DNA of 64,000 nt, taken from an uncultured Rhodospirillales bacterium. Lineage in GTDB: Bacteria > Pseudomonadota > Alphaproteobacteria > CAAGCB01 > CAG-977. A model generated the notes under the pieces. It searched no databases and was not told the DNA's origin. It saw nothing but the letters and a program-made list of their open reading frames with translations. This document shows positions 22,729-53,439 of the stretch, one piece after another (position 1 is the stretch's first letter; every line of letters begins with the position of its first letter). The stretch spans positions 1 through 64,000 of the forward strand of contig CACYSU010000009.1 in assembly GCA_902777205.1 (NCBI GenBank). Reading direction: 5' to 3'. The position numbers were made by a program, and so were the translations under genes.

Positions 22729-23301
22729 TCAGACAACCGTCAAAACGATTTTATCGGCGGCGGCGATTTCATCGGGCGCGTTTTTTATTAAATCGCCCAG
22801 ACGTTCCGTTTTTAATCCCGTCAAGACAGACAAAGAAGCCAGATGTTCTTGATGTCCGCTTTTTAAAGCCGCGTGGTTAAACAAAACAAATCTTCGGATT
22901 TGCGATATTTTCCGCGCCTGTTCGGTTTCGGCTTTCGTCATGTCTTTCCTGTCCATTTCAACATAAACGGCATCGGGGGAATATTTCCACACGCCGCCGG
23001 ACAGAAAATCCGTTGTCCGGCTATAGACAGAGGAAAGATTTATAATGCTGACCGGATTGAACTGTGACGTCAAAGGAACGATCGCGTCCTGATATCCTTC
23101 CTTTTTCAACATAATAATCACATTGCCGGAGGTGCGTTTCAAATCGACGGCGCAAGGCGTTGAACACATCGGCATACCGTTGACATAAACTTTGGCTTTG
23201 GGAGCGTTGGTGTTGACGGTAACGTTTTGTTGCGTTCCCGAAAAAACGGTGCCGCAGCCCGATAACAGGAAAAGGGCGATAACTGCTTGAAATTTTTTCA
23301 T
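22729..23301 (-). CDS. PEGA-like lipoprotein (paralogue 3)
   Basis: Predicted lipoprotein of 190 residues with lipobox LLSGC (acylated Cys16). Residues about 25-80 (VTVNTNAPKAKVYVNGMPM to LKKEGYQDAIVPL) are PEGA-like, and two Cys (MCSTPC) could form a disulfide. The C-terminal 60 residues (IRRFVLFNHAALKSGHQEHL, then LSVLTGLKTERLGDLIKNA) are the helical unit shared with the pair at 2487-4516, including the LTG turn and a closing AADKI. The start at 23301 has CAGGAG upstream. It sits behind a strongly structured leader ending in an intrinsic terminator, suggesting attenuation control. Function unknown. Confidence 0.75.
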   Translation of the reverse strand: MKKFQAVIALFLLSGCGTVFSGTQQNVTVNTNAPKAKVYVNGMPMCSTPCAVDLKRTSGNVIIMLKKEGYQDAIVPLTSQFNPVSIINLSSVYSRTTDFLSGGVWKYSPDAVYVEMDRKDMTKAETEQARKISQIRRFVLFNHAALKSGHQEHLASLSVLTGLKTERLGDLIKNAPDEIAAADKIVLTVV

Positions 23302-23319
23302 GATTTCTCCTGAATGTAA

Positions 23320-23345
23320 AATAAAACCGCCTGATGAAAGGCGGT
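23320..23345 (-). terminator. Intrinsic terminator in the lipoprotein leader
   Basis: On the minus strand ACCGCC (23345-23340) pairs with GGCGGT (23331-23326), loop 8 nt, followed by TTTATTTTA. It lies between the structured leader and the SD of the lipoprotein gene, the position expected of an expression platform. Confidence 0.7.
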
Positions 23346-23483
23346 CGGGAGCTGAAAAAATCGTAAGCAATTACAAAAACGACCCTCTGTGCATTACTGC
23401 ACAAAGACTCCCGACCCTTATACATCAAGTCAGGAATAAAAGCCCTTTGCGCCATAGCACAAAGGGTCAGGCTGTAATTGCTT
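23320..23483 (-). promoter_or_regulatory. Structured leader RNA with antiterminator/terminator switch (candidate)
   Basis: Read on the minus strand toward the lipoprotein start. An 11-bp outer stem is formed by 23483-23473 (AAGCAATTACA) with 23375-23365 (TGTAATTGCTT). Inside it are two look-alike hairpins: 23468-23443 (CCCTTTGTGC-TATG-GCGCAAAGGG) and 23406-23385 (CTTTGTGCA-GTAA-TGCACAGAG). A single-stranded GGTCGGGAG (23416-23408) is perfectly complementary to CTCCCGACC (23351-23343) beyond the outer stem, giving a pseudoknot or antiterminator. That segment overlaps the 5' arm of the terminator at 23345-23326. The 12-nt arms 23468-23457 and 23392-23381 can also pair with each other. It could be a riboswitch or protein-binding attenuator, or a MITE-like inverted-repeat element. 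Confidence 0.6.
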
Positions 23484-23578
23484 TAAAGAGTAAATAATAA
23501 ACTCCGGTTGAAACGATCAAGGCAAACGACCGTTTTCTTTTATTCCCGCCCCCCTGTCCGCCGAGAAGCGAACGCGGG

Positions 23579-53080: not shown

Positions 53081-53152
53081 CTTCAGGTAGCTTAAGGTAA
53101 AGCAATTCTCTCTCAAAGAATAGATACGGCAGCAAATCCGTCCTGAAGACCA
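53081..53152 (+). tRNA. tRNA-like gene copy 1 (anticodon-position CTC, no T-Psi-C loop)
   Basis: Folds as a cloverleaf: acceptor CTTCAGG/CCTGAAG (7 bp); TA at positions 8-9; D stem GCTT/AAGC with loop AAGGTA (A14, GG, A21); A26; anticodon stem ATTCT/AGAAT with 7-nt loop CTCTCAA (U33, anticodon-position CTC at 53112-53114); variable AGAT; T arm ACGG/CCGT with loop CAGCAAAT; discriminator A then CCA. The T54-T55 of TTC is replaced by CAG, the D loop is short and the total is 72 nt. As a standard tRNA it would read GAG (Glu), but the missing T-Psi-C loop makes ordinary elongator function doubtful. Alternatives are a degenerate tRNA, a non-translational tRNA or a tRNA-like sRNA. Confidence 0.6.
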
Positions 53153-53367: not shown

Positions 53368-53439
53368 CTTCAGGTAGCTTAAGGTAAAGCAATTCTCTCT
53401 CAAAGAATAGATACGGCAGCAAATCCGTCCTGAAGACCA
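53368..53439 (+). tRNA. tRNA-like gene copy 2 (identical body)
   Basis: All 72 nt are identical to copy 1, with the anticodon-position CTC at 53399-53401 and CCA at 53437-53439. Flanking sequence has diverged, which suggests either selection on the RNA or recent gene conversion limited to the body. Confidence 0.6.

Follow-up and report, generated by a model that had tools for sequence, protein, structure and literature searches.

The leader of a lipoprotein gene in the window (the whole 64,000-nucleotide stretch of DNA analyzed, from an uncultured Rhodospirillales bacterium) is probably a short and diverged member of a widespread class of cis-acting leader RNAs, which switch between alternative folds and form one superfamily with the Rfam family sRNA-Xcc1 (RF02221). 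Comparison of copies supports its helices, the mutual exclusivity of its strands, a cognate anti-Shine-Dalgarno (anti-SD) strand, its link to downstream genes and the family relation. Comparative support extends to mutually exclusive structures that would control a terminator or a Shine-Dalgarno (SD) sequence, as in riboswitches, and hence to the original prediction of a riboswitch- or attenuator-type leader.

Fold of the leader in the window

An 11-bp outer stem (P1) enclosing two look-alike hairpins (P2 and P4) had been proposed, together with a strand (J5′) complementary to a second one (J3′) that overlaps the 5′ arm of an intrinsic terminator; all of these elements were found at the coordinates given in Table 1. 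The minus strand has a minimum free energy of -72.6 kcal/mol as compared to a shuffle mean of -41.9 (z -7.8), and 0 of 200 shuffles folded as well. The arms of the two hairpins also pair with each other, as had been noticed, and the resulting folds compete, with a single rod and a four-way junction fitting six short-form homologues equally well. What had been overlooked was a central hairpin, P3, whose 3′ strand is the antiterminator-forming strand, as well as the large family of relatives and the competition of J with the SD; the J pairing competes with P3, the terminator and the SD. In a nested model of the window copy, P3 combined with the terminator and a pairing to the SD flank reached -80.4 kcal/mol, versus -72.1 kcal/mol with J enforced, such that the default would be OFF by 8.3 kcal/mol in this calculation, which cannot represent pseudoknotted folds. 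Because J crosses P1, the ON fold has to give up P1 or adopt a pseudoknot, and given the OFF default in the nested model, J would need extra stabilization or a pseudoknotted fold.

Table 1. Parts of the leader element and its downstream gene, in window coordinates.
Feature	Sequence	Position	Strand	Basis or remark
Whole leader element as folded		23297..23506	minus	Pb remnant to just past start codon
Pb hairpin remnant	GGAGT/ACTC, loop TTATTATTT	23488..23505	minus	
P1 (11-bp outer stem), 5′ arm		23473..23483	minus	covariation
P1, 3′ arm		23365..23375	minus	covariation
P2 hairpin (hairpin 1 of the original prediction)	CCCTTTGTGC-TATG-GCGCAAAGGG	23443..23466	minus	fold and homologue alignment
P3, 5′ arm	TTCCTGAC	23429..23436	minus	fold and covariation
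P3, 3′ arm = J 5′ strand (J5′), antiterminator / anti-anti-SD	GGTCGGGAG	23408..23416	minus	P3 pairing part 23415-23408
P4 hairpin (hairpin 2 of the original prediction), short form	TCTTTGTGC-AGTAAT-GCACAGAGG	23384..23407	minus	
PK0, 3′ strand region	CGATTTTTTCAG	23352..23363	minus	
J 3′ strand (J3′), third strand, anti-SD	CTCCCGACC	23343..23351	minus	
Intrinsic terminator	ACCGCCTTTCATCAGGCGGT, then TTTTATTTT	23326..23345	minus	
Shine-Dalgarno of lipoprotein gene	AGGAG	23307..23311	minus	
Downstream gene, lipoprotein with PEGA domain, 190 aa		22729..23301	minus	ATG at 23301

Homologues and covariation

BLAST detected one close copy elsewhere in the same genome and copies in three congeners. Among the six short-form copies, the gene downstream is clearly an orthologous PEGA lipoprotein in three, an Mrr-type endonuclease in one and an N6/N4 DNA methylase in another; the sixth (L016) carries the same leader as the three on a contig that ends before the gene. 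In other genomes, it is the full-length leader that precedes the orthologous PEGA lipoproteins. In two congeners (L168 and L170), the lipoprotein-leader unit appears, from assignments made by eye, to have a phage terminase-like ORF (MVNIKIPYKWKPRKYQMKLWNYLENG) and genes of RND efflux as its neighbours. P1 exhibited double changes in 8 of 10 pairs among the six close homologues, with 99.6% of cells paired. In five of the six, conserved sequence continues upstream, where CTGAAAAAA, in the loop of a 5′ hairpin (Pb), is complementary to TTTTTTCAG, the pairing termed PK0; the window copy has TTATTATTT at this place.

A covariance model built from the six short-form copies (R1) was run on 12 genomes of the family, and in 11 of them numerous full-length relatives were detected; 40 of these relatives served for a second model (R2), by which single genomes of the family have as many as 18 copies. 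R1 matched the window copy at 23323-23506 (minus strand), and R2, with the short form, the window copy included, outside its training set, at 23325-23520 (E 2.7e-10). Matches to R2 were present in 21 of 289 Alphaproteobacteria, from more than a dozen families, and in a sample of 398 Pseudomonadota all matches fell within Alphaproteobacteria. The P4 of full-length relatives contains a GUAUGUYCAG/CUAAAG internal loop, unlike the short form.

RNAalifold, run unaided on 40 copies, recovered the 5′ hairpin, PK0, P1b, P2, P3, P4 and the terminator, with double changes in 31 of 48 pairs. Helices were further assessed by comparing the pairing energy of cognate strands with that of partners permuted among copies, and by this measure P1, PK0, P3 and J covary strongly between copies. 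Cognate and permuted energies, in kcal/mol, were -15.4 versus -8.85 ± 0.27 for P1 class-wide (0/10000), -7.17 versus -4.68 ± 0.15 for PK0, i.e., the Pb loop with the strand just before the anti-SD (0/10000), -20.8 versus -19.1 ± 0.18 for J in 76 distinct copies (0/10000) and -15.9 versus -14.2 ± 0.19 for P3, where the cognate value again surpassed every permutation; because the sequences are related and shared ancestry stays in such tests, these counts are not probabilities. Clear examples of J are GGGGTG/CACCCC, GGGAAG/CTTCCC and GGCCGGGGG/CCCCCGGC. The original prediction was to fall if copies proved unlinked to genes, as in a MITE, or failed to covary; they are dispersed, yet gene-linked and covarying.

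The window copy, by comparison with these relatives, is a short, divergent and 5′-eroded variant, in which P1–P4, J, the terminator and the SD are kept, while the 5′ hairpin and PK0 are lost, the loop of the Pb remnant having lost its pairing with the PK0 3′ strand. It may, for want of these two elements, be constitutively biased or differently controlled. A decayed relic within a functional family, which would be compatible with the preferred reading, is a somewhat unlikely description of this copy: the loss of PK0 and the 5′ hairpin speaks for it, against which stand the retention of P1–P4, J and the terminator, compensating changes among the short-form copies in P1–P4 and J, and an intact ribosome binding site and gene. 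We infer that the window copy is active.

Proposed switch

The expression platform differs between lineages. A terminator follows the core in gut lineages, and where there is one, J3′ overlaps its 5′ arm, whereas Rhizobiales forms continue into the next gene without such a terminator. J3′ with its flank paired with the SD region of its own copy at -10.29 kcal/mol, versus -9.06 ± 0.22 kcal/mol with the SDs of other copies (0/5000), start codons for most copies being predicted rather than annotated. Since J3′ pairs better with its own SD than with others, it would act as an anti-SD in addition to controlling the terminator, and J5′ would be an SD mimic, or anti-anti-SD. Among Rhizobiales and Rhodobacterales forms, the stretch from the J 3′ strand to the start codon contains a hairpin, GCGGGGGCGYACCGC, that is strongly conserved (L342-L348 and L354). 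In L354 and L348, the leader pairs with the SD region of traM through CTAACCC/GGGTTAG and CCAACCC/GGGTTGG, which covary; this traM leader of Ti and pAt plasmids is a member of the same RNA class.

The following model is consistent with these pairings. In the full form, the loop of the Pb hairpin would make the pseudoknot PK0 with the strand just 5′ of the J3′ anti-SD, and the long stem P1 would close P2, P3 and P4. J5′ (GGUCGGGGAG), the SD mimic, would have two alternative partners, the 5′ arm of P3 behind it and J3′ (CUCCCCGACC) ahead of it. With J formed, J3′ would be unavailable, the overlapping terminator stem incomplete and the SD free, and the gene would be ON. With P3 formed, J3′ would be left to seed the terminator stem, to pair with the SD or to do both, turning the gene OFF. 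PK0 plus J would represent the ON state, and a ligand, ion or protein may tip the balance.

Relation to sRNA-Xcc1

The original prediction could not match the leader to a known class. This stood for matches at gathering score, of which a Rfam search of the whole window and one of 4227 families on the element gave none on the element; it did not stand for more distant kinship, the element being related to RF02221. Elsewhere in the window, two tRNA genes with identical Rfam scores lie ∼290 bp apart (53081-53149 and 53368-53436). The best of all families on the element was RF02221, at 23416-23335 on the minus strand, with 25.1 bits (E 0.02 in 251 bases), below the gathering cut-off of 53. This match starts exactly at J5′. 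Weak RF02221 matches also fell on the 3′ half of plasmid copies, and sub-threshold ones on the window copy and on L353, L344 and L317. The outer helix of RF02221, GGCCGGGGG:CCCCCGGCC, corresponds to J, and its inner hairpin to P4; in the window, likewise, the helix GGTCGGGAG:CTCCCGACC joins the ends and encloses P4. Homology can moreover be traced through intermediates, since matches to RF02221 and R2 overlap at six loci (G198:C1:320397, G007:C37, G004:C4, G004:C34, G007:C35 and G007:C30).

A Pb hairpin and PK0 lie upstream in 19 independently found RF02221 loci, and in 30 further RF02221 loci, all above cut-off, PK0, J and the anti-SD were each cognate (0/10000 each). A same-strand ORF followed within 130 nt in 28 of these 30 loci, versus 14 of 30 in an opposite-strand control. 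As RF02221 loci share the Pb hairpin, PK0, J and the cognate anti-SD, the family appears to represent the 3′ portion of this RNA, so that a cis-acting leader would hitherto have gone under the name of a trans-acting sRNA. RF02221 covers 87 nt, whereas the element described here spans about 200-270 nt and is read as a leader that controls a terminator, an SD or both. The published label differs as well: sRNA-Xcc1 is termed a trans-acting sRNA in the literature (Chen 2011, as cited in PMC12444791) and catalogued as “Gene; sRNA”. In Xanthomonas integron cassettes, it lies upstream of symE, both oriented against the cassette promoter (PMC12444791).

Were the element such a trans-acting sRNA, merely lying before genes, its terminator would end the sRNA. 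The catalogue entry, the terminator after the core in gut lineages and three copies without a directly following ORF agree with this, but the same-strand ORFs in 28 of 30 loci, the cognate anti-SD:SD pairing in element copies and RF02221 loci alike, and the Rhizobiales forms running into the next gene make it unlikely. A cis-acting leader fits better than the trans-acting label, with genomic context pointing to cis. A broader proposal is offered more tentatively, namely that RF02221, rather than an sRNA gene, is the 3′ portion of an orphan class of riboswitches on Pseudomonadota chromosomes and conjugative plasmids (including the Ti traM leader), which may control surface-variation, DNA-modification and mobile-element regulator genes by SD-mimic strand exchange.

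Distribution and downstream genes

BLAST placed the Rhizobiales/Rhodobacterales form on over 380 plasmids, most of them conjugative. It lies between traH and traM on the Ti and pAt plasmids, and directly before HTH regulators elsewhere. Nearly all copies stand shortly before a same-strand ORF, in place of the free orientation and lack of gene linkage expected of a MITE. Exceptions without a directly following gene are G000:C23 (L227), G003:C19 (L243) and G000:C6 (L326); these three share an alternative 3′ end, CTCCCCGATATGGTTTTAAAGCG..CGCTTTTT, and possibly represent a stand-alone terminated form. Two copies ∼5 kb apart on L225 (3143-3387 and 7975-8225) precede pilin-like and lipoprotein-like genes, and at L322:2600-2814 one copy has a cobalamin riboswitch shortly downstream of it. 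In a phage collection, the Paracoccus form matched two unannotated faecal contigs, while L014 had no match there, and a pattern scan of IMG/VR found none. The ncRNA pAT_157836F of the C58 pAt plasmid (PMC3738593), considered as an earlier sighting, does not match the element, and two surveys that looked for structured RNAs in 26 and 50 bacterial genomes list no Alphaproteobacterial candidate in their main texts.

Genes after the copies encode several DNA methylase types, a helicase-type defence protein, GmrSD, autotransporters, pilin, Opacity-type outer membrane proteins, glycosyltransferases, acyltransferases, lipoproteins, HTH regulators and TraM, among which no common pathway hinting at a ligand was seen. 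As a kind rather than as any one family, riboswitches resemble the element in their conserved multi-helix core, in strands that exclude one another and in platforms that vary, here between a terminator in the gut lineages and sequestration of the SD in the others. In contrast to them, its target genes share no metabolic pathway and no Rfam riboswitch family matches it.

The put, EAR and ops/JUMPstart RNAs are likewise structured leaders of surface and mobile-element genes with a terminator behind them. A processive-antitermination RNA of that type would modify RNA polymerase to pass this and later terminators, as a complex multi-helix RNA with a terminator right after it might suggest. The gene classes concerned (surface polysaccharide, adhesins and plasmid functions) also resemble the RfaH and LoaP regulons. 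However, such an activity is not needed in copies that have no terminator, many targets are short single genes, and the cognate anti-SD argues for local SD control. Unlike those leaders, the element conserves strand exchange together with its anti-SD, and no such family matches it in Rfam, leaving processive antitermination improbable. The idea of a mobile DNA structure (a MITE, attC-like or other palindromic recombination site conserved as DNA), to which dispersed copies, outer arms forming inverted repeats, carriage on plasmids and sRNA-Xcc1 in integron cassettes (PMC12444791) would lend themselves, was rejected as very improbable on account of gene linkage and the covariation of anti-SD with SD, with tolerated G-U pairs, a fixed orientation to the downstream gene and orthologous lipoprotein genes that keep the leader in several genomes also against it.

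TraM falls in an Agrobacterium tumefaciens hfq mutant (PMC4201532), which is compatible with post-transcriptional control, though not specific. Overall, the element has the look of an on/off switch that is part of the messenger, not of a separate small RNA. An unexplained leader is hereby linked to a known, function-poor RNA family, which gains a concrete, testable cis mechanism. Given the genes that follow it (DNA methylases, adhesins, pilins, porins, glycosyltransferases and traM, the quorum-sensing antiactivator), whatever signal the RNA responds to would matter for surface variation, restriction-modification and plasmid transfer throughout a phylum.
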